A DNA stretch of 64,000 nucleotides from Vicia villosa (lineage: Eukaryota; Streptophyta; Magnoliopsida; Fabales; Fabaceae). Shown here piece after piece: positions 5,512 to 64,000 of this stretch (position 1 is the stretch's first letter; every line of letters begins with the position of its first letter). The notes under the pieces were generated by a model. The model was not told where the DNA came from. It was given only the letters and a program-made list of their open reading frames with translations, and made no database searches. The stretch spans positions 22,447,915-22,511,914 of the forward strand of contig NC_081186.1 in assembly GCF_029867415.1 (NCBI RefSeq). The letters are read 5' to 3'. The translations under genes were made by a program, and so were the position numbers.

Positions 5512-5519
5512 AGTGAACA
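5512..5519 (-). promoter_or_regulatory. Putative TATA box of element B LTR
   Basis: Minus strand reads TATATAAA. It sits ~1.64 kb from the LTR start, comparable to A (TATA ~1.55 kb in). Transcription would proceed toward lower coordinates, placing the 3321-3609 hairpins in the RNA leader. Motif-based only. Confidence 0.5.
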
Positions 5520-14474: not shown

Positions 14475-15023
14475 CACCAAAAATAATTAATTTCCCTAGT
14501 TAGTTCCCCGAACTACATTAAGCTCTGACTTCCACTAGGGATATGTAGGCATGAGGTTCACAAGGAATCTCAGCGAGCTAATAAAATACCAAAAATAGTC
14601 AGTTTGTCTGTCTGTCTGTCTTTTAAAATCAATTCAATTCTCTCTCCTAATACAAAGGAGAAACTTTCCCAATCATAGCAATAAACACAAACACAATGAC
14701 ACAGAGAAGGTTCCTGTAGAGTACTACAGATATGTAGGGTGTTTAAACACTTCCCTATGTATAACCGACCTCCCGGACTCCAGAATTTCTAGTCTAGGTG
14801 TAAATCCCCACACTTAGCAAACTCCTAGGGTTTAGTTGAGATCTTTTTTTCCCTTTCCTACTCGTAGGACAAATAAGAAAGTTCGTGTGATATCGTAGGA
14901 AGAACTGAAATAAAATTCATCCCACCACGGGCGCATTCTCCTTCCAAATTTCGCGTGAAGGGTTTAGCGTGCCGTCCTCCCAAGTGAAACGGGGAGGTAA
15001 AGAAAACGACCACCACAGAAAAA

Positions 15024-27177: not shown

Positions 27178-27711
27178 GAAGTTTCTTTATTACCGTCAAA
27201 TGGTATCTCATCTCCAAGTGCTGATGAGAAGTTTGATGAGGAAACAAACCCTTGAAGTTTCTTTATTACCGTCAAATGGTATCTCATCTCCAAGTGCTGA
27301 TGAGAAGTTTGATGAGGAAACAAACCCTTTGAAGTTTCTTTATTACCGTCAAATGGTATCTCATCTCCAAGTGCTGATGAGAAGTTTGATGAGGAAACAA
27401 ACCTTTGAAGTTTCTTTATTACCGTCAAATGGTATCTCATCTCCAAGTGCTGATGAGAAGTTTGATGAGGAAACAAACCTTTGAAGTTTCTTTATTACCG
27501 TCAAATGGTATCTCATCTCCAAGTGCTGATGAGAAGTTTGATGAGGAAACAAACCTTTGAAGTTTCTTTATTACCATCAAATGGTATCTCATCTCCAAGT
27601 GCTGATGAGAAGTTTGATGAGGAAACAAACCTTTGAAGTTTCTTTATTTACCGTCAAATGGTATCTTACCTCCAAGTGCTGGTAAGAAGTTTGACGAGGA
27701 AACAAACCTTT
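27178..27711 (+). repeat. 76-bp tandem repeat, seven copies, each with a hairpin (Ogre A)
   Basis: Units begin GAAGTTTCTTTATTACCGTC at 27178, 27254, 27331, 27407, 27483, 27559 and 27635; spacing 76-77 bp. Each holds the hairpin TCTCATC-loop-GATGAGA. The last unit is diverged: its hairpin is TCTTACC (27664-27670) and GGTAAGA (27681-27687), two compensatory pair changes with the loop TCCAAGTGCT unchanged. Minisatellites before the PPT are common in Ogre elements. The spurious ORFs across it arise from its periodicity. Confidence 0.9.
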
Positions 27712-28070
27712 GGAAATTTTCTCTTTATCTGAGATATTGTCCAAACGCAACTAAGACCAGTTTCGAGATTTGGACATCCGGAACGAGAGGAGGTTGTTTA
27801 CCTTTTTCTAAGTATCAACACTTAGTTAAAGAAGATGGATTGCGCATCCTACATTGCCATCCATTCACCAGAATCCACATCAAGTATTTCTGCAGGAGTT
27901 TGTCTCCTCATCCCCCGCCAAGTGCGACAACGGGATCAAATCATGCAAAGATTTTATCAATTACAACATCTCAGGAGCGCCCAAAATTCGGGCATTCTTT
28001 GATATTTAAGTCTCTTTTACGCAGGAGAGATCGAGATCTCAATCTCTCTCCCTCCAGATAAAAGAAACTT
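27712..28070 (+). other. End of the Ogre A 3' untranslated region
   Basis: No ORF with support. An inverted repeat flanks part of it: AGTCTCTTTTACGCAGG near 28009 with CTTAAATA... upstream of the PPT is weak. Nothing else recognised. Confidence 0.5.
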
Positions 28071-43833: not shown

Positions 43834-44810
43834 CCTTCAGAGTTGTTGCTCTAAATCAGCTTAAGAAGATTTGAAGATGAAGATCATGGCAAGAAGCAAC
43901 CAACATAAGAGTTGCTGCTCTTAATCTGCTTTCAGAAGAAGAAGATCTCATACAGAAGTTGAAGACAAGAAGACTACAAGATATTTTGTTTCTTGTAATA
44001 ATATGTAAAAACACATAGAGTTGTTGCTCGTAGTGTGTTATAGCTTAAGAAACTTCTGATAGATTGTTTAGGCACCAGAAGTGACTTCTAGTCAGTGTGT
44101 TGTAAACATACGTATTGAGAATAGGAGACCATCTACTTAATTGAGAAGCACACCTGTAATCTCTAGAAGATAGATGAATGTTATATCCTGATGGGATCAC
44201 TGAACGGTTCATCATCTATAGTTAGTCACGAGCAGTGGGTTTGTGCGGGGTTAGTCACAGCAGGTAGGTGTGCAAGTTACTAGATTGATGAACGTTATAT
44301 CCAAATGGGATCACTGAACGGTTCAGTCATCTAGGGGTTAGTCACTCGCAGGTAGCTTGTGCAGGGTTAGTCACAACAGTTGGCTGTGCAGGTTGTTAGT
44401 CACGATGGAGGATCATGCAGATGAAATCAAGTTTGGTTATAATGGATTAAGACCTCTGTTGAGAGAAAAATCACCTGAAGAAAGTGGGCTGGAGGTAGCC
44501 TTATTCAGAAGGTGAACCAGGATAAAAATAAACGTGTCTTTTACTTTATGCACAATTCAACTAACTCTGAACATTCACGCAGAATATCCTTAGAACTGTA
44601 CTGAGACAAGTCAGAAGTTCTGATGATACAAAGAAGTTAAACTGAATATCTCATTGGTTATGCAACTCCATTCCAAGCATGCTTCCACAATATTGTAAAG
44701 CATATCCAGAAGATGAGATACTAAGAAGTAAGAGAAGAATTTAAAGAAAGGGAATTTTTAAAGAACACAATTACATCCCCCCTTTCTTGTGTTTTTCTCC
44801 ACCTTCTGTT
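43834..44810 (+). repeat. Fragment of a copia-type LTR ('copia4'), interrupted by copia2
   Basis: Sequence ends CCCCCCTTTCTTGTGTTTTTCTCCACCTTC, the same layout as the copia1 LTR end (CCCCCCTTTCTAAGTGTTTTTC). Inside are repeats: GGGATCACTGAACGGTTCA at ~44199 and ~44308, and several GTTAGTCAC units (~44222-44405). The portion from 43919 is duplicated at 53383. Confidence 0.6.
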
Positions 44811-44919
44811 TTGACTTATTGCTTAGTATCATCTATTATGTTGACTTATTGCTTAGTATCATCTATTGTTTTGACTTGTCGATAAGTATCATCTATTGTT
44901 TTGACTTATTTCTTAGTAT
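44811..44919 (+). repeat. 30-bp tandem repeat (3.6 copies) at the D1 insertion site
   Basis: Units at 44811, 44841, 44871 and 44901 (partial): TTGACTTATTGCTTAGTATC and so on. The array stops exactly at the Ogre-type LTR start at 44920. Second copy at 54275-54383. Confidence 0.85.
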
Positions 44920-45532
44920 TGTCATACCCCAAAATTTGCCCATCTCATTTCATCATCAAGGGTTCAAGGTTCAAGGGTTTATTCGAGCAACATTCTCCTA
45001 ATCGAGGGTCTCTTAAGTTAGGGTTTGCACTTCATCAAAGGAATTTGAGTCTCTAAGGCCTCAAATGGATCTCAAGGTGTCTCATATGTCTCAGGGTATC
45101 TCCATGTCAATTATCAAGCTTCAATCCCAAGGATTTCTCATTCAAATGCTCAGGTGATCCACAATCGACTAGTTTGACCTAAAAATCAACGATGGTCAAA
45201 GTATAGTCAAAACTCCTGACTTTTGGTAAACATCAAGTATTTGAGGTTATATCCATCATTTTATCAAAGGTTGATCATGATCCATTAATAAAAACTCAGA
45301 AATGAACAAATTCAAAAGGTTCAAATTAGGGTTTTTTATAGGAGAAAGTGATCAACTCAACTTTGACTGGTCATAACTTTCACATGGAGTATCAAAATTT
45401 TCCCAACCAAAGCCTATTCTGAAGGAAATTGGATTCTCTACAACTTTGTCTCTCACATGCCAAGGCCAGAAATGCTTCATTCATGAGATATGGTCCAAAA
45501 GATTATAGGTCCTTTTCAAAGGTCAACCAAAA
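44920..45532 (+). repeat. Start of Ogre-type LTR 'D1' (first copy), cut by copia3
   Basis: Begins TGTCATACCCCAAAATTTGC. Preceded by AGTAT (44915-44919), the likely target duplication. Resembles the reverse complement of D2 (~60990-61268), so D1 and D2 are one family. The LTR resumes only after the second copia3 LTR, at 55929. Confidence 0.82.
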
Positions 45533-46464
45533 TGAAATTCTGGACTCAGACACGCGATGTCTAACAGGATGTCACGACATTACTATCTGAACGTTTTTAA
45601 ACAAAAGAACAAAGAGTAAACAGATAAACAACACAGGAAAGTTGTTAACCCAGTTCGGTGCAAACACACCTACATCTGGGGGCTACCAAGCCAGGGAGGA
45701 AGTCCACTATAAGTAATATCAATTAAAGGTAATACAAATCAAGATTATGCCTTTCACTTAATATCTACCCAATGCAACTTCAGTCTAAACAACTTAGACC
45801 AGAGATCCTACTCACTCCCCCTCAATCACAGCAGTGATGAAAACTAACCAACGAATAACAAAAGAAGACACTCTTCAAGGACACAACTTGATCTTGCTTA
45901 AAAGCTTTGATCAAGTACAATAGTACTCTTGCTTAAAAGCTTTGAGTACTTCTTACAACTCAAAACAAAACGCCTAGACCAAGACAATCATCATGATGAT
46001 TGTTTGGCTTACAAGAAAGCTACAACGAAAGACTTAAAAACAAAGAACTCTAAAAGTTTCTCAAACAAAAACCCTAACGTCAACAGCAGCACCTGCGTGG
46101 AATATATAGCCTTCATACAATACAGCAGCTGGGCCTTGGATCCACAAAATAGTTTTAACCCTAATAAAACTAATCTCCATAAATCAAGGAACTAATAATA
46201 ATAATCATCCAAGACGTCCTTGAAACAGATCAGAATCCATCATTACCAAATAAAGCGCATAGGATCTTATCAGATCACATAACCATAAATAGTAATAGAA
46301 AAGAACGAACAGCTGCGAATGTCATGACATCGGCCTTGACATCAGGTAAAGGCCTGCAAAGGAAAGACTTCACAACAGCAGAATGCATGTCATGACACCA
46401 GTTATGACAAGATAGATCCACAATTAGTTTTACCAAAAATTACAGCCAATCAACAACATCTACA
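45533..46464 (-). repeat. 3' LTR of copia3
   Basis: 932 bp; minus strand TGTAGATGTTG...AATTTCA. Adjoins the polypurine tract (plus strand AACTCCCCCTTTGG at 46465-46478). TATATAT near 46102-46108 (minus) is a candidate TATA box. Near-identical to 54997-55928. Confidence 0.88.
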
Positions 46465-46841
46465 AACTCCCCCTTTGGCAAATTTTTGGCTAAAACACTA
46501 ATAGATGTAAGCAGATATCAGAGCATACACAGCAGCCAACAACAGAAAAATAAATTCTGTAACAGAAAAATAAATTTTGTAAGCAACAACAGCAACTTGA
46601 TTAATCACCAGAAAATCAGAAAACATCTACTTAATCAACTGTTACAGAAACCACTTGTCATTGTTAGGGAGAACCAGAGAAAACCCAAAATAAAGAAAAC
46701 CACAAAACAACCATGTCCAAGAAAAACCAAAAGATCACCAAAATAACAAAACAACCATTACAACAAAACAACCACTACCACTACCAATTACTCCCCCTTT
46801 TTAGCCACAAAAGGAGCCAAAACATATTCAGCTCAGCAGAG
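46465..46841 (-). other. Polypurine tract and 3' untranslated region of copia3
   Basis: Minus-strand CCAAAGGGGGAGTT abuts the 3' LTR. A second GGGGGAGT lies at ~46790 just after the third ORF. In between is A- and CAA-rich sequence on the plus strand without coding support. Confidence 0.75.
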
Positions 46842-48833
46842 CTAATCATTAGACCCATCACTGTCTTCATCACTAGAGCCACCAGGATTGTCATCACTTG
46901 AGCTACTAGTCCATTCAGCAGCATCACTACTCCCACTCTCAGCACCCTCAGCCTCAGCATCCTCAGCTTCTTCCTCAGCCTCTTTGTCTTCATCCATATT
47001 GTCACCACCCTTTTCACCAGCAAGATCATCATCTGTAGACTGCTCAAGACTGTGGATGAGATTTTCAAGTTTCAGCTTCCTGTTGTCCAACTCTTGACAA
47101 GTCTCTTTTAGCTCAGCAATAAGAAGAGCTTTGTTCACAGATTTGCTGGGTTGTGATGTCCCAGCAGATGTCTTGTCATCAGACCTCTGCAGCAGCTTGT
47201 AGTGAAAAGACAAAGCACTCTCCCTCTTACATACAAAATCTTTACTTTTCAGAATTCCAGGGTGTTGCTTGAGGATTATTCCACATATCAGAGATGGGAA
47301 AGCAATGGGAAGCTTAGTAGCAGAGGTACCAACATGCCTCATAGTTTGATCAAATATGTAGGTCCCATAGTCAAATTTTGTCTTGGTTCCCACAGCATAT
47401 ATGAATCTTCCTAGGCCAACAGCAATGGTGGAAGTGTGATTGGTAGGCACCCAGTTAGCAGCACCAATTTTGTGCAGCAATGCATACCTGACATTAAGAG
47501 AACTAGCAGACAGTTTGCTCTTTATGGGCCACTTCTTAACCTTATCACCAGTGATTACCTTGCAAACCTCATTATCAGTCACTTCAAGCTCAGGTTGAGC
47601 CTCAGCATCTCTACCTAGATATAGGTTGATAACAGCAGGGGAAAAATCTATACACTTTCTTCTAACATACACCTTATGAAAATCATCAGTTGTTCCATCA
47701 CCACAATCTTGAGACAAATTCACAATGAATTCCTTCACAAGCATTTCATAACACTTTGAAAAATGAGTAACAGTTTTAATCAAACCTGCAGCCTTGATGA
47801 GCTTCATGACCTCTTGACATTCCAGAGCATCATTTGCTAATTCTCTTTCCAGAGCCAGCCTTCTTTGATAGACAAACTTCCACTGGATAGCATTTGAAGC
47901 ATAGTGCAAGTAAATGTTATCCAAAGGAACATCACGAACCTTTGTGGAGGATTTTGTGACAGCAATCTTCTTCTTGGATGGGATGTCAGGGACATCACTT
48001 AAGACATCATCTTCTGGGACAGAAACACTTCTTTCCTTCCTCTTCTTCACAGTAGCCTTGCTCCCTGTGGTTGAAGGTTCAGCAAGGACCTTCTTGTCCT
48101 TCTTTATAGTGACCTTCTTTTGAGGAGTAACCTGAGGTTTGGAGAAATCTTGATCACAAGCCTGTTTGCCCTTACGAGTCTTGACTCTATGAGAGATGCT
48201 AGAGATGAGTTCATCATCAGCAATGTCAATAGAATCATCCAGGTCATCCAGATTCACCACATCATGCACAGTAGGGCCTTCATTAGGGGTTTCTTTAGAA
48301 ATAGCAACAGGAACCTCTTCAGCTTTCTCAGGCTCAGGAATTTCAGCATCTTTAGTACCAGATGTTTCAACATTAACAGCTTCAGATGTCTCAACTTCTT
48401 TGGCACCTGGGATCTTCTCTTCAATGTTATCAACCGATGTCTCAACATCACCCTGATCTTTGCTAGCATCATCTTGACCATCTTGATCATCTTTGCTGTT
48501 CTCAGAAGCAGACATCTGGGCTAGAGGAACGGATATCCCATCAACCTTGTGTCCTTCATTCAAGATTCTGGTGACAATACCTGCGATCGCATTGTGAACA
48601 TAAGTAGAACCCTCTCTACCTTGAACAGAAAAGGTTTCAGGAACAGATCCCCCAGTTGATTTTCTTACATGCATCTTTCTTGGTAGATTACGAACAGTAT
48701 CGGTAGCAGGAACAGAGTTCAATGGCACAACATCCAGCACAACATCTTGATCACTCACAACATTTGGTGCCCTAGAACCTGATGTTGTTTCAGAGGTAGG
48801 AGAAGATTTCTTTGAGGGAGAACTCTGAGACAT
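46842..48833 (-). CDS. Third ORF of copia3 (plant-transposon-protein type)
   Basis: 663 residues from ATG at 48833 (MSQSSPSKKSS); an in-frame ATG upstream at 48986 lies in leader-like sequence and is less likely. Residues ~1-310 are Ser/Lys/Glu/Asp-rich and probably disordered. Residues ~315-550 form a folded region (YLHYASNAIQWKFVYQRRLA, VYVRRKCIDFSPAVINLYLG, NVRYALLHKIGAANWVPTNH) typical of the putative plant transposon protein domain. A leucine-rich coiled coil (LIAELKETCQELDNRKLKLE) and an acidic tail follow. No signal peptide or transmembrane helix seen, so an envelope role is not supported. Intact. Lies 198 bp after the pol stop, same strand. Confidence 0.8.
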   Translation of the reverse strand: MSQSSPSKKSSPTSETTSGSRAPNVVSDQDVVLDVVPLNSVPATDTVRNLPRKMHVRKSTGGSVPETFSVQGREGSTYVHNAIAGIVTRILNEGHKVDGISVPLAQMSASENSKDDQDGQDDASKDQGDVETSVDNIEEKIPGAKEVETSEAVNVETSGTKDAEIPEPEKAEEVPVAISKETPNEGPTVHDVVNLDDLDDSIDIADDELISSISHRVKTRKGKQACDQDFSKPQVTPQKKVTIKKDKKVLAEPSTTGSKATVKKRKERSVSVPEDDVLSDVPDIPSKKKIAVTKSSTKVRDVPLDNIYLHYASNAIQWKFVYQRRLALERELANDALECQEVMKLIKAAGLIKTVTHFSKCYEMLVKEFIVNLSQDCGDGTTDDFHKVYVRRKCIDFSPAVINLYLGRDAEAQPELEVTDNEVCKVITGDKVKKWPIKSKLSASSLNVRYALLHKIGAANWVPTNHTSTIAVGLGRFIYAVGTKTKFDYGTYIFDQTMRHVGTSATKLPIAFPSLICGIILKQHPGILKSKDFVCKRESALSFHYKLLQRSDDKTSAGTSQPSKSVNKALLIAELKETCQELDNRKLKLENLIHSLEQSTDDDLAGEKGGDNMDEDKEAEEEAEDAEAEGAESGSSDAAEWTSSSSDDNPGGSSDEDSDGSND

Positions 48834-49031
48834 GTTGAGAGAAAATGGAAAACTGGGTAAAGGGTTGTGAAAGCAGAAACACAGAGAGATAGCGTGAGTG
48901 TGGAGGAGAGGTTTTGGAGGAATGGAAACCGTTTGGGTAACTTGTAAAAGGGGGGGAAAATACACTTTAATGTGTAATGATATCAAAGATTTGGAGAGAG
49001 AAATAATGCTGGCCCCACACCCAATTAATTG

Positions 49032-52000
49032 CTATAATCCTTCACAAAGACAAATGCCTAGTTTGCTTCTTAGATTTTCAAATTGATTTGCATCCAAGGC
49101 TTTTGTGAAAATGTCAGCCAGTTGAAGGTTTGTAGCAACATGTTCCAAGGCAATTATTTTATCTTCAACAAGATCTCTAATGTAATGATGTCTAATATCA
49201 ATGTGCTTGGTCCTGCTATGCTGAATGGGATTCTTTGAAATGTTAATGGCACTTAAGTTGTCACAATATAATGTCATGACATCTTGTGTGACATTGTATT
49301 CTGTTAACATTTGTTTCATCCAAACAAGCTGAGAGCAACTACTTCCTGCTGCAATGTATTCTGCCTCTGCAGTGGACAAGGACACACAATTTTGTTTCTT
49401 GCTGAACCATGAAATAAGATTATTACCCAAGAAGAAACATCCTCCTGAAGTACTTTTTCTGTCATCAGCACTTCCAGCCCAATCTGCATCACAATATCCA
49501 GTGAGAATAGGTTCACACCCATGAGAGTAGAGCATTCCATATTCACAAGTACCATTCACATATTTCAGGATCCTCTTGACTTGGTTGATATGGCTGATCT
49601 TAGGATCTGCTTGATACCTTGCACACACCCCAACAGCAAAAGCAATATCAGGTCTACTGGCTGTGAGATACAGCAGACTTCCTATCATGCTTCTATATAA
49701 ACTTTGATCAACACTGGTTCCCTTTTCATCTTTGGACAACTTTAAGTGAGTAGGAGCTGGTGTTCTTTTGTGAGAAGCATTTTCCATTCCAAACTTTTTA
49801 ACAATGTTTTTAGCATACTTACTCTGAGAGAGAAAAATTGAGTCTTCCATCTGTTTAACTTGCAGCCCAAGAAAATAAGTTAATTCTCCAACTAGACTCA
49901 TTTCAAATTCTGATTGCATCTGATCAACAAAATGTCTAGTCATCTTGTCTGACATTCCCCCAAACACAATATCATCCACATAGATTTGAGCAATCAGGAT
50001 CTTTCCTCCTTCATCTTTAACAAAGAGAGTTTTATCTATTCCTCCTTTCCTGTACCCATTACCAGTAAGAAACTCAGTTAGTCTCTCATACCAAGCTCTA
50101 GGGGCTTGTTTTAAGCCATAAAGAGCTTTTCTTAGTTTGTACACATAGTCAGGATGGTTTGGATCAGCAAAACCTTTAGGTTGCTCCACATAAACTTCCT
50201 CACTCAGGTATCCATTCAAGAAAGCACTCTTCACATCCATCTGATACAGTTTGAATTTTAGAATACAAGCAACTCCTAGCAGTAATCTAATTGACTCAAG
50301 TCTAGCAACTGGAGCAAAGGTTTCATCAAAGTCAATTCCTTCAACTTGAGTGTATCCTTGAGCAACTAGCCTTGCTTTGTTTCTGACAACAGTTCCCAGT
50401 TCATCTGACTTGTTCTTGTAAACCCATTTTGTTCCAATGACATTAGTACCTTTAGGTCTTGGTACCAGCTCCCATACTTCATTCCTTTCAAACTGGCCTA
50501 GTTCTTCCTGCATGGCATTAATCCATAACTCATCTGTTAAAGCTTCCTTGACATTTTTAGGTTCAATTTTTGACACAAAACAAGAGTTTGAAACTACTTC
50601 CCTTGACCTTGTAGTAATTCCACTGTTGAGATCACCTATAATAAGTTCACTAGGATGATTTTTTTGAACTCTTATTGATGGACTCTTGTTAGGAAGTTTA
50701 GTCTCAGATTCTGTGATAGTAGGACTGCAATCATCTTCTCTTGTAGATCCTTTAGCTGTAATATCCCAGAATGTTCCGACATCTACTGTGACATCTGCTT
50801 GATTGTGGACATCATCAACTACAACATTTATGGACTCCATTATTATTCTGGTTCTTGAGTTGAACACTCGATAGGCTCTACTGTTCGTAGAGTAGCCCAG
50901 AAAGATTCCTTCATCACTCTTGGGATCCATCTTCCTTCTTTGATCTCTATCAGCAAGAATGTAACACTTACTACCAAACACATGGAAGTATTTGACAGTG
51001 GGTTTTCTTCCCTTCCAGATCTCATATAGGGTGGTAGAGGTTCCTTTTCTTAAGGTAACTCTATTATGGACATAACAAGCAGTATTCATGGCTTCAGCCC
51101 AGAAGTAGATAGGAAGATTCTTAGCATGGATCATGGCTCTGGCTGATTCTTGAATAGTTCTATTTTTTCTTTCAACAACCCCATTTTGCTGTGGAGTAAT
51201 AGGGGAAGAGAATTCATGATGTATTCCTTCAGAGGAGCAGAAATCAGCAAACTTTTGATTCTCAAATTCCTTTCCATGATCACTCCTAATTCTCACAACA
51301 CCATTTTCTTTTTCTCTTTGAACTCTTTGACATAGGTCCTTGAAAACATCAAACACATCTGATTTTTCTCTGATGAAATTTACCCAAGTGTATCTGGAGT
51401 AGTCATCTACCACCACATAAGCATATTTCTTTCCTCCAAGACTTTCTATTTGCATTGGTCCCATCAAGTCCATATGTAGCAGTTCAAGAACTCTGGAAGT
51501 AGTCAGATGTGTAACCTTTGGATGTGACATCCTGGTTTGTTTTCCTACCTGACATTCACCACATATTCTTCCTTCATCAATTTGTAGCTTAGGAATTCCT
51601 CTCACAGCTTCCAGAGAAATAATCCTTTTCATACCCCTTAGATGAAGGTGACCAAGTTTTTGGTGCCATAGCTTTGCTTCTTCTTCCTTAGAGCATACAG
51701 TAGAATAGCTGGATTCATGAGACACCCACAAATAGCAGTTATCTTTGGATCTGACACCCCTCATTACTACTTCCTTTTCTTCATTAGTAACCACACACTC
51801 AGCTTTAGTGAAGTTGACTTGGTATCCTTGGTCACAGAGTTGACTGATGCTTATGAGATTAGCAGTCAGGCCTTTGACCAACAAAACACCTTCTAAATTT
51901 GGCACTCCTGAACAGTCTAATTTTCCAACTCCTTTGATTTCTCCTTTAGCTCCATCACCAAAGGTTACATAACTAGTAGAATGACTCTTGATATCAACAA

Positions 52001-53384
52001 GCAGATTCTTGAGTCCAGTCATGTGTCTGGAACATCCGCTGTCAAAATACCAGTCTTCTTTGGCTGAAACTCTAAGAGATGTATGGGCTATTAAGGCCAT
52101 ATTTTTAGGTTTCCATTGTTGCTTCTGGACGGGCATGATCTGCTTAGGTTTGTAGTAAGGAGCTTGATCTGGGTATCCATATAATCTGAAGCAAAAAGGC
52201 TTAATGTGTCCAAATCTTCCACAGTAATGACATCTCCATCTTTGAAACTTTCTCTTCATTTCACTTTTCTCGTGATGTTGAGTCACATGTTTTGACATCG
52301 GTTTCAACATCTCAGCTTCAGGTTTAGTTCTGCTACTATCTTGGAAATGTTTCTTTGCACCAACAAATCCTATACCAGACATATCTCCTGAACTTTTTCC
52401 AACCTGCAAAATCTCCTCCAACATATCCGTGCCACTGTTCAACATTTTTACAGATTTTGACATCTGATCAAGTTTGGATTGTAACATGATAATTTCACTA
52501 TTCAGTTCAGATATAGTTTCACTAAGCCCTTTGTTATCAGCCTCCAACTGAGCTATGTATTTCTTCTGCTTTTCACCTTGTTGACACACTTCAGCACTTC
52601 TGATACATAGCTTTCTGTAGGAGGTTGCCAGCTCTTCAAAGGATAGCTCATCTTCACTAGAATCTTCATCAGAATTGCAAACTCCAGTAAGGGCTATGAC
52701 ATGTTTGGCTGATTCTTCTTCAAAATCACTCTCAGAATCTTCATCAGACCAGGAGACTGACAAACCTTTCTTTTGTTTCTTGAGATAAGTAGGGCATTCA
52801 GCACTAATATGTCCATACCCTTCACATCCATGACATTGAATCCCTTTGCTGTGATTGTACTTTTCTTCTGGTTTAGCTCTTCTGCCAGAGTCATAAGATC
52901 TACTGATGTCAGATGAGATGTTCTTGGCATTAGGTCTTGGCTTCTGATCCATTCTTCTCATAATTTTGTTGAATTGTTTGCCAAGCATAGCTATAGATTC
53001 AGATAGATTCTCTTCTCTACTTTCCTCTACTTCTTCTTGAGAGTTGGACACAAAAGCTATGCTTTTGTTCTTCTTTTCAGAATTTTCACTGATTCCCATC
53101 TCAAAGGTTTGAAGAGATCCAATTAACTCTTCTACCTTCATTTTGCTGATGTCCTGTGCCTCTTCTATAGCTGTAACTTTCATATCAAATCTCTTAGGTA
53201 GGGATCTAAGAATTTTTCTCACCAGCTTTTCATCAGACATTTTCTCTCCCAAAGCTCCTGAGGTATTAGCAATATCCAGTATATTCATATGAAAATCCTT
53301 AATACTTTCATCATCCCTCATCCTTAGATTTTCAAACTTTGTAGTTAGCAGTTGAAGTCTTGACATCTTCACTTTGTTGAAGTC
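49032..53384 (-). CDS. gag-pol: Gag-Pol polyprotein of copia3, N-terminally truncated
   Basis: Open for ~1450 codons, no lesion except the missing gag start; reading begins at the breakpoint and the first genuine shared residues are [14 protein letters not shown], corresponding to mid-gag of copia2. Two zinc knuckles: [14 protein letters not shown] (~residue 178) and [14 protein letters not shown] (~380). Protease [11 protein letters not shown] (~440). Pre-integrase and integrase ([31 protein letters not shown]). RT with [20 protein letters not shown] and YVDD (~1130). RNase H with [10 protein letters not shown] (~1294) and [10 protein letters not shown]. Product would copy and integrate the element; without the start it is presumably silent. 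Confidence 0.9.
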
Positions 53385-54383
53385 TTAATCTGCTTTCAGA
53401 AGAAGAAGATCTCATACAGAAGTTGAAGACAAGAAGACTACAAGATATTTTGTTTCTTGTAATAATATGTAAAAACACATAAAGTTGTTGCTCGTAGTGT
53501 GTTATAGCTTAAGAAACTTCTGATAGATTGTTTAGGCACCAGAAGTGACTTCTAGTCAGTGTGTTGTAAACATACGTATTGAGAATAGGAGACCATCTAC
53601 TTAATTGAGAAGCACACCTGTAATCTCTAGAAGATAGATGAATGTTATATCCTGATGGGATCACTGAACGGTTCATCATCTATAGTTAGTCACGAACAGT
53701 GGGTTTGTGCGGGGTTAGTCACAGCAGGTAGGTGTGCAAGTTACTAGATTGATGAACGTTATATCCAAATGGGATCACTGAACGGTTCAGTCATCTAGGG
53801 GTTAGTCACTCGCAGGTAGCTTGTGCAGGGTTAGTCACAGCAGTTGGCTGTGCAGGTTGTTAGTCACGATGGAGGATCATGCAGATGAAATCAAGTTTGG
53901 TTATAATGGATTAAGACCTCTGTTGAGAGAAAAATCACCTGAAGAAAGTGGGCTGGAGGTAGCCTTATTCAGAAGGTGAACCAGGATAAAAATAAACGTG
54001 TCTTTTACTTTATGCACAATTCAACTAACTCTGAACATTCACGCAGAATATCCTTAGAACTGTACTGAGACAAGTCAGAAGTTCTGATGATACAAAGAAG
54101 TTAAACTGAATATCTCATTGGTTATGCAACTCCATTCCAAGCATGCTTCCACAATATTGTAAAGCATATCCAGAAGATGAGATACTAAGAAGTAAGAGAA
54201 GAATTTAAAGAAAGGGAATTTTTAAAGAACACAATTACATCCCCCCTTTCTTGTGTTTTTCTCCACCTTCTGTTTTGACTTATTGCTTAGTATCATCTAT
54301 TATGTTGACTTATTGCTTAGTATCATCTATTGTTTTGACTTGTCGATAAGTATCATCTATTGTTTTGACTTATTTCTTAGTAT

Positions 54384-54996
54384 TGTCATACCCCAAAATT
54401 TGCCCATCTCATTTCATCATCAAGGGTTCAAGGTTCAAGGGTTTATTCGAGCAACATTCTCCTAATCGAGGGTCTCTTAAGTTAGGGTTTGCACTTCATC
54501 AAAGGAATTTGAATCTCTAAGGCCTCAAATGGATCTCAAGGTGTCTCATATGTCTCAGGGTATCTCCATGTCAATTATCAAGCTTCAATCCCAAGGATTT
54601 CTCATTCAAATGCTCAGGTGATCCACAATCGACTAGTTTGACCTAAAAATCAACGATGGTCAAAGTATAGTCAAAACTCCTGACTTTTGGTAAACATCAA
54701 GTATTTGAGGTTATATCCATCATTTTATCAAAGGTTGATCATGATCCATTAATAAAAACTCAGAAATGAACAAATTCAAAAGGTTCAAATTAGGGTTTTT
54801 TATAGGAGAAAGTGATCAACTCAACTTTGACTGGTCATAACTTTCACATGGAGTATCAAAATTTTCCCAACCAAAGCCTATTCTGAAGGAAATTGGATTC
54901 TCTACAACTTTGTCTCTCACATGCCAAGGCCAGAAATGCTTCATTCATGAGATATGGTCCAAAAGATTATAGGTCCTTTTCAAAGGTCAACCAAAA
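54384..54996 (+). repeat. Start of Ogre-type LTR D1 (second copy)
   Basis: Copy of 44920-45532. It ends with CAAAA (54992-54996) before the solo LTR and resumes after CAAAA at 55929-55933. Confidence 0.85.
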
Positions 54997-55928
54997 TGAA
55001 ATTCTGGACTCAGACACGCGATGTCTAACAGGATGTCACGACATTACTATCTGAACGTTTTTAAACAAAAGAACAAAGAGTAAACAGATAAACAACACAG
55101 GAAAGTTGTTAACCCAGTTCGGTGCAAACACACCTACATCTGGGGGCTACCAAGCCAGGGAGGAAGTCCACTATAAGTAATATCAATTAAAGGTAATACA
55201 AATCAAGATTACGCCTTTCACTTAATATCTACCCAATGCAACTTCAGTCTAAACAACTTAGACCAGAGATCCTACTCACTCCCCCTCAATCACAGCAGTG
55301 ATGAAAACTAACCAACGAATAACAAAAGAAGACACTCTTCAAGGACACAACTTGATCTTGCTTAAAAGCTTTGATCAAGTACAATAGTACTCTTGCTTAA
55401 AAGCTTTGAGTACTTCTTACAACTCAAAACAAAACGCCTAGACCAAGACAATCATCATGATGATTGTTTGGCTTACAAGAAAGCTACAACGAAAGACTTA
55501 AAAACAAAGAACTCTAAAAGTTTCTCAAACAAAAACCCTAACGTCAACAGCAGCACCTGCGTGGAATATATAGCCTTCATACAATACAGCAGCTGGGCCT
55601 TGGATCCACAAAATAGTTTTAACCCTAATAAAACTAATCTCCATAAATCAAGGAACTAATAATAATAATCATCCAAGACGTCCTTGAAACAGATCAGGAT
55701 CCATCATTACCAAATAAAGCGCATAGGATCTTATCAGATCACATAACCATAAATAGTAATAGAAAAGAACGAACAGCTGCGAATGTCATGACATCGGCCT
55801 TGACATCAGGTAAAGGCCTGCAAAGGAAAGACTTCACAACAGCAGAATGCATGTCATGACACCAGTTATGACAAGATAGATCCACAATTAGTTTTACCAA
55901 AAATTACAGCCAATCAACAACATCTACA
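54997..55928 (-). repeat. Solo LTR of copia3
   Basis: 932 bp, flanked by CAAAA on both sides (54992-54996 and 55929-55933), sitting in the D1 LTR with no polypurine tract or PBS on either side. It has the form of an LTR-LTR recombination product. It is inserted at the same base as the truncated copia3 at 45533. Confidence 0.88.
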
Positions 55929-56497
55929 CAAAAGCAATTTTTTGTCAAAGGACATATCATCAAGATAGAATCTCCAAATGAAAAATATGTTCCAAAGTGG
56001 CTTGTAGAGGACATCTTTAGGTTTCCAAAAAGTCCTAGAACTCTCTCATATATTAAAAATTGAGGGAGATATGCCTTGTCAAAGTTGGTCGATTTTGGAT
56101 AGAAAATGTGAAGCAAATAAGGGTTAAACTTGGATTTTTTCCAAATGGGCCTATTCTTTTATGATCCAAACTTGCTTATAAAGTATTAAGAAGCTCCAAA
56201 CTCAAGCCCACAATTATTTGACTTTTATTATATTTCTAGTGAATTTTTATTCATTTAAGATGCTATTTAAATAGAGATAATTGAAGAAAATATGTGAGAT
56301 TTGATTTGGCCTTATTTTCCAATCAATTTCAATCACATAAATGTCAAATATTGGCCTAATTTTCGTGCAAATAGAGATTGGTAAGAGAAGATTGAATTTT
56401 AGCCAAATTTGGAAGTTTAAAATCAAGGTTTCAATCAAGATTCAATCTCAATAATTATGGAGATTGGATCCAATATAATTGACCTAATATGATTCTC

Positions 56498-56505
56498 TAT
56501 AAGTA
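56498..56505 (+). promoter_or_regulatory. Putative TATA box of D1
   Basis: TATAAGTA in CTCTATAAGTATAG. D2 carries the same octamer on its own strand at 60437-60444. Confidence 0.55.
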
Positions 56506-57208
56506 TAGAAGCTAACACCAGGCACAGGGGGGGATTCGGACTTGGAGGAACCCTAACTAACTTCAAAAAAACTCAAAAAAAGTTCAAGAAATTTGGAATT
56601 CGATTTTGAAGTTTTAAGGAGACTCAGAGGCTTCTAAAGGTTCAACCGTATTCCTGGAGTATTGTTGATGGTTCCCCAATCAAGACGTCTGGAATCAGTG
56701 CCCACGAACTCACGGTTTGGCCAAGTTGGAAGAGCTTCGATTGCATCCATACGAGCATTATAAATACAATTTGATCTTATATTATTATTCATATTGATGC
56801 ACAATACGTTTCTGGATAGTTTAATTTGAATGTAAGTGCAGGAACTGGGAGCCACCATTTTTAGGTCTTGGAAGCTTCGTTTTAGGGCTTTAGGATTTAG
56901 GCAAAATTAGACAAAATCAGGGGCTCCATCATGCCTAGGGAACGATTCCGAATTGATTCATGGTTCTCTTTTGGATTTATATTATGTATTGGTGAATTTG
57001 AGGACTTGCAGGGCTATGGCAACAACGCAAAAACCGTGGGTATAAGCTTCTGCATTTTTCCAGAAAAGATGAAGAAGACGATGGCGTGGCAATCAGCCAT
57101 TCGTCCATTCAAATCCACGCACGCTGAATTTCACTTAAAATGTTACATTGTTCCGTTTTTAATACATATTGTTCAGCGTTCATTTTGTGTACAGAAAAGG
57201 AAAGGTGA

Positions 57209-57272
57209 ACGAGTGGCAAAAGCAAGGAGCTGATGGCGTAGGATACGCTGGTTCGATTCCCAGTCCCTGCGT
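57209..57272 (+). repeat. tRNA-like module in D1 LTR
   Basis: GGTTCGATTCC (57250-57260) is an exact B box, with CGAGTGGCAAAAGCAAGG about 35 bp upstream as a weak A box, and GGGATT-like pairing poor. Not a functional tRNA. Lies ~0.75 kb after the TATA box. Confidence 0.5.
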
Positions 57273-57734
57273 GTATTTTTATGAATTAGCAAACTCCTAG
57301 TTCACGTGCGCACTATCTCAAGGAGGTGCATGATATACCCTCTCCATTCAACCACTGGATCGTTACTAAGCAAGATCCAATGCACCTGGATTGAAGGCTC
57401 GTCACATGGACACTCAACCTAATCACATGCAATCAAAACCAGGTTTTATTGTATTTATTTTATTTACTTTATTACTTATTTATTTAGATTAAATATGAAG
57501 TAATTAGGATTAATTTAATTAAATTGCTAATTAGGGTTAGAATATAAATTAAGATTAGGGTTATAATCATTTAGGATTATTTTCCCGATTATATTCTCGA
57601 TTAGTCGACTAATTCGATTAATTTGTTTAATTAGCTTTAATTGTTAAAAATCAAACAAAACCCTGGAAAGATTATCAGGCATTAGGGTTTGCCCAATCCC
57701 ACTGGCCACTTGGCCAAAATATTAGGATTTAATT

Positions 57735-58068
57735 TATTATTCGTTTCAACTAAATTTATTGGTCGCGATGGGTAATAATCGATCATTTAATTATCAATTA
57801 AATTAAAATAAAAATACATATTATTTTGCTAAATGGTTTTAACCAAATATATTGGTTACGATGATTAGCATTCCCCCTTTAAAAATTCGTTATTATTTTT
57901 AATCAAAGCTATTGATTATGAGGGATAACGATAAAATCAATAATTAATTATTAAAATACCTCCGTTTGCTAAAAGTGATAATCGAATCAATCGATTAGAA
58001 TTGCTAGCAATCCTTCATTCAATCCGTTAACTATGGTGATCAAACCTATTGATCATCGCAACTAACGG
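57735..58068 (+). repeat. Array of five two-tier hairpins with covarying stems (D1 LTR)
   Basis: Inner stems with a 5-nt loop: 57748-57764 AACTAA/TTGGTC (imperfect), 57840-57858 TAACCAA/TTGGTTA, 57900-57918 TAATCAA/TTGATTA, 57979-57997 TAATCGA/TCGATTA, 58037-58055 TGATCAA/TTGATCA. Outer stems 5-9 nt away: 57736-57741/57774-57779 ATTATT/AATAAT, 57827-57832/57865-57870 TGCTAA/TTAGCA, 57887-57893/57925-57931 TCGTTAT/ATAACGA, 57966-57971/58005-58010 TTGCTA/TAGCAA, 58024-58029/58063-58068 CCGTTA/TAACGG. Confidence 0.8.
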
Positions 58069-58752
58069 TAACATATTAAACCAGGGTTGTACGCCATTTA
58101 AAACACTCAAAATTCATCTCTTCAATACTGCGATTTTCAAAACTACGATAAGGTATGTAATACGGTGAACTGACTTTATCAAAAGAAATGTCGCGGTAAG
58201 CAAAAGTCGCCACCGACTTTTATTTTATCCAATTGGAAAGGCTAAAAGAACAGGAAAAAGACCTTTTTAAAGATTTTGAGTTCGGGGGGTAAGTTATACA
58301 AAGGGAAGGTGTAAGGCACCCTTTGTATCCATGGTTATCCATGGGCTCTTAATTGCTTGGCTCACATTTGTCTTCAAAATGTTTGAATTGTTTGAAAAGC
58401 AGGGTGTGAACAGAAAAAATATTCGTTAAGGACTTTAGCTTGTAAATAAGCGTAGCCTTGTTTTGAAAGTATTTGAAAAGAGAGGTGTGAAAAGTAATTT
58501 GAAAGTTTGATTTGAATAGAGCAAGAAATTAGTAGCAACTACCCTAAGTTTAAAAACATTCTTTTAGCTTTTCAGGCAAAAGGGTCTATCCATACCATGA
58601 GAGGGCAGGAAGTCTTTCAATTGGATGTTAAGGGTCGTCGAGTAATCGCTCGCCATAAGACTGTCCCTTGCCATAAGACTGTCCCTTGCCATAAAGAGGG
58701 CAGGTAGTCTAAGGAAGGACATAATAGTCATTTTATCTTTTTAGGCATCATG

Positions 58753-58857
58753 CGAGGATACCTTAGCAATTTGGGGACAATTATTCTGTATAAGGCAACC
58801 TCGGGGGAGTTTCAATAACTTTGAAGGCGACAGGCAACATTGCTTTAGGTATCCTCG
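58753..58857 (-). repeat. Long inverted repeat in D2 LTR
   Basis: CGAGGATACCT (58753-58763) pairs with AGGTATCCTCG (58847-58857), and AGCAA (58765-58769) with TTGCT (58840-58844), 16 bp with a small bulge. Inside are further GGCAAC motifs. It occupies the same place in the LTR (after tRNA-like module, before LTR end) as the D1 and A arrays. Confidence 0.7.
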
Positions 58858-59516
58858 GAATCGAGGGACTTGACTATTTAGCATACTTAGAGGCAATAGG
58901 TTTATAAGGCAACATGCAACAAAGGCAACAAGAGGAATTACCTTAAAGGTGTGTGGGTGCAACAATCACGTGGTTCAATTCATATATATTATCTTGTAAT
59001 TAGTGATCTAATTTATTTAACGAAGCTTGCACTCCCTAGGATTACTAACCACAGCAGAAAAATAAAGGCAGAATTAAAACCCTACGCTATTACAATAAAC
59101 ACCTATGGGGATGGGGGAAAAATAAAACATAAAATTAACTTGCACATCTTCAGCCTTGATCTTCCTCGAACCTTCGATTGACTCTGATCATCTGAGAATT
59201 AAACGAAAAATGATAGTGGTGAGTGTAGAAGTAATTCATTGACAGTTGAAACCAATCATAATTTAAGCCTTAAGGCAAAAATTAAAATAAAAGGCAAAAC
59301 TTAGCTTTTTGATTGCCATGGCGCGTAGTCGGAAGATCTTGGCTAACCCTCAGATTGGGTGTGATGAGTCTGCGAAGGTGTATGGCGGAGCTTCACATCT
59401 GGGACGTTGGATCTGTATCACTAGAGATCTACTGGCAGCAATTTGAAGGTCCATCACGTACCCTCCTAGCATGCGCGCACCTGATCTTCTAGCAAGAAAA
59501 TTCAGAAAAAATATTG

Positions 59517-59590
59517 AGGCACAGCTGGGATCGAACCCAGGTTCTATAGGCAACAGGCGTGCACGGATGACCATTTAAGCTGCGTGTTCA
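59517..59590 (-). repeat. tRNA-like module in D2 LTR (minus strand)
   Basis: Minus strand reads GGTTCGATCCC (59527-59537), a B box, inside CTGGGTTCGATCCCAG, a perfect T-arm-like stem. About 40 bp upstream is GCTTAAATGGTCATCC, A-box-like. No complete cloverleaf drawn. Confidence 0.58.
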
Positions 59591-60436
59591 AGGTGTTTAA
59601 CTAACCACATTGACAAATTAAATATTAAACACGTTAGTTGATGAAATTTAAATACAAAAAGTCAAGAGTGGACCCCATCTGTGCGTGGTCTACCAATCGT
59701 GCGAAGAGAGAGATGCATTGGAAAGTTTGACCAACCACTGGGAGTGCGCCACGCGTGGAAAGAGAGGACAGAATGTTGGCTGGCCAATCGGTGAGCAACG
59801 CGTGGGACCACGAAGTGAGCTTCATCGTCTTCCTTGGACCTGCAATTTTTTGCTACGAAACTGCTTGCAATTTGCTACGAAATAAACTACAAAAATTCAT
59901 AGCAGAATCTGAGAAATTAAATTCGCAAAAAAAACGCGTTAGGCATACAAAAAGAAACCCCAGATCGACATAGATTTTTCTCCTGATCACGAATCCGACG
60001 TTGTTTTGGCTTAAAACTGGCTGCAAGCACGAACCCAAACTTGAAACTCTTTTGAGCCCTAACTATGGCGTCTTCCCATCCTTGCGTGTAAACTTCGATC
60101 TAAATGCTTGTATCATCTCAGAATAACGTCATGATCTTAAATAAAACATCGAAACTAATGGAAGCATGGTAATAAATAGCATACGAATTCAAGAACATAT
60201 ATGAATATGACATGCTTGGTATGAGTGTTTTACATGCTATACGAACCAAATATAAGCGTGTACTTACTCTTAGTTACCTTACAAGAAGAATGGAACGATT
60301 GGTTAAGGTTGATATGAGCTGCCAATAGGAAAACGATCGTTGATTCTTTTATGAGGTTTTTTGGAAATTTTGAGAGGTCCTTTTTTAGGCTAGGGTTCGT
60401 TCAATTCTGTTCCCCTTATTTCAGATTACCTTCAGG

Positions 60437-60444
60437 TACTTATA
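60437..60444 (-). promoter_or_regulatory. Putative TATA box of D2
   Basis: Minus strand TATAAGTA, the same as D1. The tRNA-like module and hairpins lie downstream in the direction of transcription. Confidence 0.5.
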
Positions 60445-61268
60445 GGGATGGATTTAGGGTTAGAAGTCTGGAGAAAATCAAATATTTGATTGAAAAAGAA
60501 TCGAAAGAAAATTTGATTGATTTTTTGCATGAAAACTTGCCAAGTTGGTATCAAATATTTCCAATTTTCCCTTAAACGAAATTCACTTGATTTGCCTTGA
60601 TTATTGATGATATATTGAATCAAATCTGGGACCAAATATAATCTTTGACTATTTCTAGCATTTTATTCAATTTAAATTGAATTTAAATGATTTAAACTCA
60701 AAATAAAATAGATAATAAATACTAAAAATGATGGGAATGGTCTATGGGTCGTGGATGTTCTTAAAATGAAGATTGGGTAAAAAGAAAATAGGCCCATTTG
60801 GAAATATTTGGAATTTTGGACCTTTTCTCTTCGCACATGCCCTTGGAAATAGGTGAACTTGTACACCTTTCCATTTCCTCCTACTTCAACATTTTTTCAA
60901 GTTATTGGACTTTTTAGAAACTTTAAAGAGTCCTCTAACCAATGTCTTTGGTCTCATGTCAAAATGATTTTCCATGCTCCTTGTATGTTCTTTTGAAGAA
61001 GATGACTTTTGGTTGACTTTTGAAAAGGACCTATAATGTTTTGATCCATATCTCTTAAATGAAGCATTTTTAGACTTGGCATGTGAGAGACAAATTTGTA
61101 TAGAATTCAATTTCCTTCAAAATGAGCTTTAGATGGAAAATTTATGAGGTTCCATGTAGGAGTTATGGCTGGTCAAAGTTCAGTTGACTTTCTCCTATGA
61201 AAAACCTAATTTAGAAAGTTTTGAATTTGTTGATTTCTGATCTTTCCTTGATGAACCATGATCAATTC

Positions 61269-62414
61269 TGAAGGATAGAAAAACACTTAGAAAGGGGGGG
61301 TTTGAATAAGTGTAGCTTTAAAACTTGTAAGATAAAAACAATTTGCACAATGATTTTTATCCTGGTTCGTTGTTAACTAAACTACTCCAGTCCACCCCCT
61401 TGGAGTGATTTACCTCACTTGAGGATTTAATCCACTAATCATACTTGATTACAATGGTTTTCCACTTAGACAACTGCTAAGTCTTCTAGAGTATCCTGAT
61501 CACAACCTGATCACTCTAGGAACAAACTGCTTAGACAACTTCTAAAACTTGCTAGAGTATATTGATCAACAACCTGATCACTCTAGTCCTTTACAAATTA
61601 ATGTAAACAAATTCTAAGAGTATTACAATGCTTCTTAAAAGCTATAATCACAACTGTGATATTTCTCTTAAAGTTTAAGCTTAATCTCACTATAATATTA
61701 CAACAGCAATAAGTGAGCTTGATGATGAAGTATGAGAGCTTTTGATTTGAACAACGTTTCTGCAAGTTGGTTCAGAGTTTGTAATTCGTTCGTTAACCTT
61801 TGCTTCTCATCAGAACTTCATATTTATAGGCGTTTGAGAAGATGACCGTTGGGAGCATTTAATGCTTTGCGTAATCCGTACAGCATTGCATTTAATGTTT
61901 CACTCTTTTGTCAACTACCTCGAGCCTTGTTTCTGCTGTGTCTACAGACGTTGCCTTTAATAGCTTCTAACGTTCCTTTTGTCAGTTAGCGTAGCCTGCC
62001 AGTCTAGTACTTGCTTCTGATATGATGTTTGTGTAAACAACGTTTAAATGTCATCAGAGTCAAACAGCTTGGTGCAGAGCATCTTCTTGTCTTCTGACCT
62101 TGAAGTGCTTCTGAGCGTGATACCATGAGAACTTCAGTGCTTCTGCTTTTGATTTCAAGTTCTTCTGATGCTTCCATAGACCCATGTTCTGATTCTGCTT
62201 GACCATCTTCTGATGTCTTGCCAGACCATGTTCTGATGTTGCATGCTGAACCTTCTGAGTCAGTGCTTCTTGCGCTGATTTTGTGCATACTCTTTGTATA
62301 ATTCCAGAAACGGAAATTGCATAGTATTAGAGTACCACATTATCTCTTACAAAATTCATATCCTTGTTATCATCAAAACTAAGAATATTGATCAGAACAA
62401 ATCTTGTTCTAACA
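61269..62414 (-). repeat. 3' LTR of copia5
   Basis: 1146 bp; the minus strand is homologous throughout to copia1 40231-41361 (TGTTAGAACAAG...CTATCCTTCA) with visible divergence. TATAAATA on the minus strand at 61821-61828 is a candidate TATA box (copia1 has TATATATT there). Confidence 0.88.
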
Positions 62415-63427
62415 ATCTCCCCCTTTTTGATGATGACAAAAACATACATAAATGATATGAATTTGCGATCAGAATATCAGACGGCTAAAGACAATTACAC
62501 AGCTATAGCACAAGCATATAGACAATGTGTGAATATGTCTCCCCCTGAGATTAACAATCTCCCCCTAAGATAAATAATCTCCCCCTGAAATTAATACTAG
62601 AAGAATTTTATAAGTAAAAGACTTCCCTGAGTATTTCAGTAGAGACGTTCACAAATGCTTAGATCTTCAGAACATTCACAGCTTCTGATTCTTGCTTCCA
62701 TAGGACAGCTTCAGAACATGAATATCTTCTTGAGTCATTGCATGCTAGATTGTATCAGAACATTGTTGAATGTACCAGAGCATCATCAGAGCATCTCTAC
62801 ATCCTGAAATGTTACAGAACAAACTAAACGACAAAAGTCAGCATGAATGAATCAGAACATAAAATATGTATCAGAACATATAATTATGTATCAGAGCACA
62901 TAAACATAAAATGTTTCAGAGCATATTTTGTAACTAAAACATGCATCAGAACATATAAAGAATAAGAATGAAAGTATATTCTCTCATCAGAATATCAGAA
63001 CATTCTTCCTTCTTGCTTCTGATCTTGAAGCTTTCTAGCACTCAGCTTGCTTCAATTTCCAAAAGCTTGATTCTTTATAGAATTGCTTTTCCTCATCTCT
63101 TTGCTTCTCATGTTGAGCTTTAAAGAGGATCTTCAATTCCTGCAAGACAACACTTAAAAACATAGAACTTTGCAAGTTCTGTTAGAAATGTGGAGCCTTT
63201 CTCCCAGCAACTGATAAAATAAATCAGATCATTTATCACATATTTCTCCCCCTTTTTGTCATAACATCAAAAACATAATAGATTCAGATGAAAAACAAGA
63301 CAAACACATAGAAGAAAAGGATAATTATCATTAAGTTCAAGGAGAAAAGGTTCAGAAGTACAAGAGGAAGATGCAAAAACAGATGCATCAAGGCAAAAAA
63401 AAAAAACAGTCTAAGACTCAATCTAAG
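62415..63427 (-). other. Polypurine tract and 3' untranslated region of copia5
   Basis: Plus-strand ATCTCCCCCTTTTT at 62415-62428 is the complement of the polypurine tract. GATTAACAATCTCCCCC-like units recur at ~62541, 62561 and 62575 (three near 20-bp steps), duplicating the tract. The rest is homologous to 39242-40230 of copia1; no coding support. Confidence 0.75.
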
Positions 63428-64000
63428 ATGACCCTAGCTTCGACATGATCTTGGCCAGCATATCATGAATCCCACTGTTGCTCTCATTCTGCCTTTCTTT
63501 TTAGCCTAGCCTGTTGTTTCTTCTGATCCTTCTTCTGAAGATCAGCTTTGGACAGAAGTACTCTTCCACGGATCCAAGCAGGATCAACTTCTGATTGCTT
63601 CCGTACAGAATCTTCCAAGTGATGCTTGACAGCCTTGTGAAGTTCTCGATGGAACAATGTCGCAAAACCGTCAACAGGAACTCTCCTTGACAGAATGTCA
63701 GGAAAGCTTGTACCAACAGAAGATACCGTCTGGATGAGATCAAGTCTGAACAAATCCACACCGTTGAAGATGGGACCTTGAACCACTCCAAGAAATTGGG
63801 ACGCATCAAGGGTCCTGATGGAATCCAGTAGATTGCTTTCAGTCAGAATGTCATATATCATTCTGGCGAAAGGAATAGTGTTCCTTGGAATATGAGGGTA
63901 CTTAACCCTTTCTTCTTCTCTTGACTCAAAAATGGCAGTCTTCAGATTCTCAAACAAAATGTGAGAGATGTTGAGTTCTATCTTGCTGCCAATGCAGAAG
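63428..64000 (-). pseudogene. C-terminal part of third ORF of copia5, deleted and frameshifted
   Basis: Open from the window edge on the minus strand (no true ATG; the frame enters at 64000) to TGA at 63484: SKIELNISHILFENLKTAIF ... QARLKRKAE. A frame change at ~63490 leads directly to the ending SNSGIHDMLAKIMSKLGSS at 63428-63485, the same C-terminus as the copia1 third ORF. In copia1 roughly 500 residues of Pro/Ser- and charge-rich sequence separate these parts, so copia5 carries an internal deletion. Confidence 0.7.

Follow-up and report, generated by a model that had tools for sequence, protein, structure and literature searches.

A tandemly duplicated series of two-tier hairpins with paired stem changes next to an inverted Ogre/Tat-type LTR in Vicia villosa

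Results

Retrotransposons of the locus

The window, a stretch of 64 kb of Vicia villosa analysed over its whole length, is plant DNA packed with nested LTR retrotransposons. An intact Ogre/Tat-type element with LTRs that are 99.1% identical occupies 9037-34049 and contains one ORF with DUF7745, one with gag, and pol. Its pol includes, between RNase H and integrase, an additional RNase H-like domain (RVT_3), which is the layout of Ogre and Retand according to an excerpt of PMC6317226. Self-matches reveal a tandem repeat of about 76 bp (27178-27728) in the 3' part of this element. A probable third LTR lies on the minus strand within approximate limits of about 2665-7155, with a perfect copy of the Ogre primer site at 2647 and start-like sequence at 7134-7155 (6 mismatches in 22).

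On the minus strand of 43919-55928, between two direct repeats, are a copia pol and an ORF carrying PF20167, which is env-like in Sireviruses. These repeats (43919-46464 and 53383-55928) are 2546 bp long and 99.8% identical, flank the copia gag-pol, and each hold an Ogre-type LTR start in plus orientation (44920, 54384; 4 mismatches). The copia gag match between them starts at profile position 73, and their outer flanks show no matching 5-bp duplication. The sequence to their right contains the following features:

55929-58158, plus strand: LTR-like sequence (D1), bounded on the left by the 2546-bp repeat and on the right by the inverted LTR, its ends having no mate to define them
56498-56505, plus strand: TATAAGTA, presumed promoter box of the D1 LTR; the inverted LTR has the same octamer at the corresponding aligned position (60437, minus strand)
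58159-61265, minus strand: inverted Ogre/Tat-type LTR (D-), interrupted on its right side by another repeat (61266-63497)

Positions 55929-56591 (plus strand) are 61% identical to the reverse complement of 60357-61011 over 683 columns, and 57250-57434 (plus strand) are 62% identical to the reverse complement of 59353-59537 over 188 columns. Given these identities and TATAAGTA on both sides, the region holds a tail-to-tail pair of diverged LTR-like sequences. The octamer occurs nine times in the window (8 on the plus strand, 1 on the minus strand), the intact Ogre LTRs accounting for two of these (11894, 30934). D- is tied to the intact Ogre element by a 64-column match and by a two-hairpin module described below; D1 may be related to the Ogre/Tat (OTA) LTRs through D-, itself linked by that short match and the module. 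The first-pass annotation spoke of a "D1 LTR". The resemblance to the inverted LTR is in line with this, but since neither a second copy nor a mate of D1 is present in the window, we regard its LTR status as presumptive.

By inspection against the ends of the intact Ogre and third LTRs, with a poor alignment over the final 150 bases, we place the 3' end of D- near 58159 or 58087 and the right limit of D1 at 58086 or 58158. The hairpin array, which ends before either limit, is therefore outside D- and most likely belongs to the plus-strand sequence. That it is an internal region behind the inverted LTR is unlikely, as no primer-site match lies past the 3' end placed by inspection. The primer-site sequence of the intact Ogre element has no match in 55929-64000 with up to 6 mismatches in 18, and D1 is apparently cut off before that point; the window contains none of its internal region. 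The array was annotated as lying downstream of the TATA box and as probably transcribed. Its position, about 1.2-1.6 kb downstream of TATAAGTA at 56498, agrees with the first part, and transcription from this box is a plausible possibility.

Words which we take to resemble the tRNA B box stand at mirrored places of the two facing LTRs (57240-57275 and 59515-59545); ARAGORN found no tRNA. An AT-rich segment of the inverted LTR (60651-60729) matches its reverse complement with 74% identity over 81 columns.

The hairpin array

The array of two-tier hairpins reported in the first-pass annotation is confirmed, and all stems quoted there are present at 57735-58068. It consists of five units:

57732-57780, plus strand: unit 1 (U1, B type); outer stem TTATTA/TAATAA; inner stem imperfect, with one T.G and one A.C opposition
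57825-57873, plus strand: unit 2 (U2, A type); outer stem TGCTAA/TTAGCA with a 1-nt bulge; inner stem TAACCAA/TTGGTTA; loop ATATA
57885-57933, plus strand: unit 3 (U3, B type); outer stem TCGTTAT/ATAACGA; inner stem TAATCAA/TTGATTA; loop AGCTA
57964-58012, plus strand: unit 4 (U4, A type); outer stem TTGCTA/TAGCAA; inner stem TAATCGA/TCGATTA; loop ATCAA
58022-58070, plus strand: unit 5 (U5, B type); outer stem CCGTTA/TAACGG; inner stem TGATCAA/TTGATCA; loop ACCTA

All five units (57732-58070, plus strand) align without gaps over a core of 49 nt, and successive units start 93, 60, 79 and 58 nt apart. Cores are 43-67% identical (21-33 of 49 positions in the ten unit pairs); summed over these pairs, 173 of 280 stem sites and 104 of 210 other sites are identical. 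U2-U5 have perfect inner stems of 7 bp with the consensus TRAYCRA/TYGRTYA, loops of 5 nt, perfect outer stems of 6-7 bp and an inter-tier gap of 6-7 nt, inside the 5-9 nt first proposed. The single imperfect inner stem of the original description is that of U1. The outer stem of U1 is indeed paired, but it had been given as ATTATT/AATAAT, shifted by some bases within a repetitive stretch relative to the register shared by the units. The outer stems are not "nearly unrelated" as first described, since they fall into two related types, TTGCTA-like in U2 and U4 and CGTTA-like in U3 and U5. All five loops have A at both ends and are in direct orientation. Kissing loops are unsupported as a general rule: on inspection of the five units, a 4-nt palindrome is present in the loops of U2 and U3 only.

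The block U4-U5 aligns with the block U2-U3, spacer included. Because of this alignment and the gap-free cores, we read the units as tandem duplicates and not as independent hairpins, namely as a duplicated two-hairpin module with an extra B-like unit in front.

Whether shuffled sequence gives equally regular arrays had been raised as a doubt. A strict two-tier search, which demands perfect stems and which U1 fails, detected four units in 57735-58068; no unit appeared in 1896 of 2000 dinucleotide shuffles, one in 102 and two in 2, and no shuffle had more. As no shuffle exceeded two units, a chance origin of the array is excluded. In a 760-bp stretch five units were found, compared with none in 453, one in 44, two in 2 and three in 1 of 500 shuffles. 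The whole 64 kb contains 14 strict matches, nine of them elsewhere and widely scattered. More than one match within 400 bp occurs only at 57471-58068, where there are five, the one at 57471-57504 lying outside the array.

A search of the 64-kb window with a covariance model of the five units yielded no convincing sixth member. Its best other match, leaving out the minus strands of the five units themselves, is 6852-6878 on the minus strand, the sense strand of the third LTR (17.0 bits, E 0.86), and covers the inner part only; the best additional plus-strand match has an E of 3.8. By strict search and covariance model, the array was not found in D-, in the intact Ogre LTR pair or in the third LTR, and is therefore not a lineage-wide element. 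Rfam gave no match above the gathering threshold in the window. Pattern searches of non-plant contigs, a set uninformative on the D1 family, gave 0 viral matches for the LTR pattern and for each of two hairpin patterns, 0 bacterial or archaeal matches for one hairpin pattern, and one viral stretch that pattern-matched a piece of the Ogre RT protein, none being confirmed.

Paired change in the stems

In the 7+7-bp structure of the first-pass annotation (14 pairs in five units, 70 cells), 63 cells (90.0%) are paired compared with 78.4% in shuffles, and 9 of the 14 pairs have changed on both sides compared with 3.6; neither value was reached in 500 shuffles, a control that related sequences as such can exceed. 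Four of the seven inner-stem positions were rewritten on both sides. No slid register approaches the observed pairing or number of double changes, in a comparison favouring the structure because it was read from the same five related sequences. In the number of further pair types the array does not stand out (121/500 shuffles reach its value). Allowing the U2 bulge and including a middle stem of 3 bp, in an alignment fitted to the structure, 92.9% of 85 cells are paired and 11 of 17 pairs are double-changed (0/500 shuffles), further pair types again being not unusual (386/500).

Permutation of the arms gave 120 combinations of 5' and 3' arms, among which the true one is uniquely best for inner and outer stems together and for the inner stem alone; for the outer stem alone it ties for first with one other. 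For the middle stem the true arms do no better than permuted ones (31/120 reach it, or 104/120 if only Watson-Crick pairs are counted).

Within types, we compared U2/U4, U1/U3 and U3/U5, the closest three of the ten possible unit pairs, chosen by type. These 42 pair comparisons comprise 28 unchanged pairs, 8 compatible double changes, 1 non-pairing double change and 5 single-sided changes, two of which still pair and three of which have one form unpaired. Double changes thus number 9 against 3.04 expected (1 in 200,000), and all 8 compatible ones are double transitions. In a star simulation at the observed stem divergence, the observed pairing was reached in 10 of 20,000 runs. A model built without U1 detects U1 with 37.8 bits (E 6.9e-6), compared with 13.5 bits (E 0.0075) for sequence alone, which is supporting and not decisive evidence, as a model of this kind gives a few extra bits to any hairpin. 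Paired change of the stems, as first claimed, is supported inside the array beyond independence by the arm permutation, the count control and the within-type comparisons. This suggests that the folded shape is preserved rather than the letters.

Folding and strand

Folded as RNA, the whole array has a z of -4.72 on the plus strand, with none of 100 shuffles as low, and of -2.77 on the minus strand. Folding energy alone is only moderately unusual: six of the seven listed 110-nt plus-strand windows across the array have z values from -0.81 to -2.52 and one has -5.86, in a scan of 55001-61300 and one Ogre LTR with 16 shuffles per window. As RNA, all five units are more stable on the plus strand, with unequal margins (U1, -10.8 on the plus versus -2.3 kcal/mol on the minus strand; U5, -17.0 versus -16.9 kcal/mol, a difference of 0.1). 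On the plus strand all five inner stems have mean pair probabilities of 0.78-0.99 in three sequence contexts. On the minus strand U1 never holds, with at most 0.43 across the three contexts, and the other four hairpins all hold only in the widest context, the outer stem of U3 weakly.

Wobble pairs are concentrated in the middle stem, where 8 of 15 cells are G.U and 1 is A.C. The 70 cells of inner and outer stems are 64 Watson-Crick, 2 G.U, 3 A.C and 1 other and so show no RNA-strand bias. Over columns 22-43 the whole hairpin has a G.U excess of 14 versus 6, which we do not count as strong, since the middle stem of the related units accounts for most of it. As single-stranded DNA, the plus strand, the one strand folded in this way, has a z of -3.49 versus shuffles.

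RNA on the plus strand is the favoured reading of the level of pairing, because it is the one strand on which the complete set of five hairpins forms in each of the three contexts. The preference for RNA over DNA comes from plus-strand folding and middle-stem wobble and not from the main stems; as these lack a G.U bias, DNA palindromes and template switching are possible alternatives. At either level, the array is a real duplicated, covarying series of hairpins.

A two-hairpin module at LTR 3' ends

The lowest z in the folding scan of 55001-61300 and one Ogre LTR, -6.41, is not in the array but at 58246-58355 on the minus strand, near the 3' end of D-. A second structure is located there and in other LTRs:

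58296-58344, minus strand: two-hairpin module in D- near its 3' end; a 6-bp stem (4-nt loop) followed by a 10-bp stem (13-nt loop)
14714-14762, plus strand: two-hairpin module in the 5' LTR of the intact Ogre element; 3' LTR copy at 33746-33794
2801-2848, minus strand: two-hairpin module in the third LTR; loop of 12 nt

The 6-bp stem (4-nt loop) and the 10-bp stem (12-13-nt loop) directly adjoin without a gap. In the three LTRs, 48 of 48 cells are paired and 7 of 16 pairs have changed on both sides, which none of 500 shuffles reached, the three sequences having been chosen via a short sequence match and the structure read from these same sequences; further pair types were reached by 30/500 shuffles. 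All four cells that are not Watson-Crick are G.U on the sense strand. Folded singly, in pieces that cut the small stem short, the module sequences are mildly unusual at most (z -1.39 to -2.95); the best fold of the piece from the third LTR has the 10-bp stem only. A window-wide search for the shape retrieved the three LTR types (four copies) and nothing else. The same search gave 23 matches in 20 block-shuffled windows, about one per window, and the shape alone is therefore not rare. Even so, the module is a better case than the array for selection on sense RNA in the Ogre/Tat lineage.

Discussion

We tentatively propose that a diverged Ogre/Tat-like (Ty3/gypsy) LTR-like sequence carries a tandem-duplicated array of RNA hairpins whose stems have changed in step. 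A two-hairpin module would have been duplicated in tandem to give the array, with the stems changing in step afterwards. Transcription from TATAAGTA would put the array into the R/U5 leader of the plus-strand RNA, upstream of a primer site no longer preserved at this locus. The pairing partner would be this RNA, and selection may have kept the pairing; the two-hairpin module of the three related LTRs lends support to such a reading. The first-pass annotation named packaging, dimerisation and export as conceivable functions. The array could serve as a multi-copy cis-acting structure of the genomic RNA, its most likely role being that of repeated Gag/nucleocapsid docking sites in packaging or dimer formation. 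It is less likely, and in our view doubtful, that the Ogre/Tat leader combines a lineage-wide two-hairpin module with an array that in at least one family docks its own Gag, as a plant counterpart of a retroviral packaging domain.

Leaders of Ty1 and Ty3 genomic RNA likewise have structure in the 5' part of the RNA of an LTR element, and excerpts of PMC4974528 and PMC11381356 describe short palindromes proposed for dimer contact, in the setting of packaging and dimerisation. Those leaders were studied by experiment, whereas the array is known from sequence and repeats one type of hairpin five times. The Conserved Hairpin Site of fungal GalEa copia elements is also a non-coding hairpin of LTR elements kept across families, but it consists of one hairpin, immediately behind the 5' LTR of elements without a primer binding site (PMC5445492, in excerpt).

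The palindromes may instead act as DNA, as dyad cis-regulatory or chromatin signals or as cruciforms, in the manner of Sirevirus LTR boxes. We judge this unlikely, although several observations point to it. The CpG observed/expected ratio of the array is the highest in the window, reached by none of 1274 overlapping 339-bp windows, with 13 CpG in 339 bp, 12 of them inside unit cores, at a G+C of only 91 of 339 bases; the CpG count was reached by 55 of 20,000 mononucleotide shuffles. The main stems are largely Watson-Crick with few G.U, and the plus strand also folds better than shuffles as DNA. Sirevirus RM boxes, as described in the excerpted text of PMC2829016, are short palindrome clusters inside plant LTRs and lie in CpG islands; for the array, location in an LTR is presumptive. 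These boxes are the closest known system and differ from the array in place, core and copy identity: they are upstream of the TATA box, while in the present case TATAAGTA precedes the array by about 1.2 kb; 12 of 13 elements, Tnd-1 being the exception, have a CGG-CCG core that the array lacks; and 10 of 13 have boxes with more than 85% identity, compared with 43-67% between units. The array is moreover two-tier and stands next to LTR sequence of Ty3/gypsy type. Half-site letters are not conserved in it, as the rewriting of the inner stem on both sides shows, and DNA palindromes leave the two nested tiers and the plus-strand folding unexplained. The stretch of highest CpG ratio in the window extends over 57450-58070 in AT-rich surroundings.

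Equally improbable to us is mutational homogenisation, in which template switching between arms during DNA replication or reverse transcription would produce paired change without selection. Such switching, by which the stems of RNA hairpins change in pairs without two separate mutations, is proposed and documented for rRNA genes in the excerpted text of PMC8794818, and the adjacent doubles at 4/47 and 5/46 between U1 and U3 could be one event. Against it, the array has kept internal mismatches. Position 15/35 beside the inner stem is unpaired in four of the five units and two positions beside the outer stem are each unpaired in two of five, where a copied tract should have repaired all three, and in U1 a paired change adjoins an uncorrected A.C. 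That the loops are not inverted is a weak argument, as one form of switching keeps the loop (PMC8794818, in excerpt). Because of the unpaired positions beside the stems and the direct loops, we lean towards stepwise selection rather than copying between arms; five copies are too few to settle this.

That the hairpins are small-RNA precursors recognised by the host, rather than serving the element, is very unlikely. Palindrome clusters in maize Sirevirus LTRs do attract small RNAs (Bousios 2016, as cited in an excerpt of PMC10760457), but targeting should select against structure and not for paired change. The stems of the array are also short for a miRNA precursor. Least probable of all is convergent cytosine deamination, with both arms decaying alike in the same methylation contexts: in five of the eight compatible double changes one arm or both have a CpG or CHG site, but three are in CHH contexts only, and the enrichment of CpG in the array (observed/expected 2.14 versus 0.81 in 56530-57731) argues against an origin of the paired changes by cytosine decay.

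Among the matches listed in searches of titles and abstracts, with subscription papers mostly outside their scope, none dealt with RNA structure in the leaders of plant Ty3/gypsy elements or described an array of this kind in a Ty3/gypsy LTR. Excerpts of PMC2829016, PMC10760457, PMC3601003, PMC6911290, PMC11963269, PMC5445492 and PMC12218528 contain no such Ty3/gypsy array either.

Paired rewriting within one array offers a test that can separate RNA structure, DNA palindrome and template switching in a single family. Ogre/Tat elements are a main repeat of many legume genomes. Their candidate RNA element, the module common to three LTR families, can be searched for directly and can help to locate LTR 3' ends.
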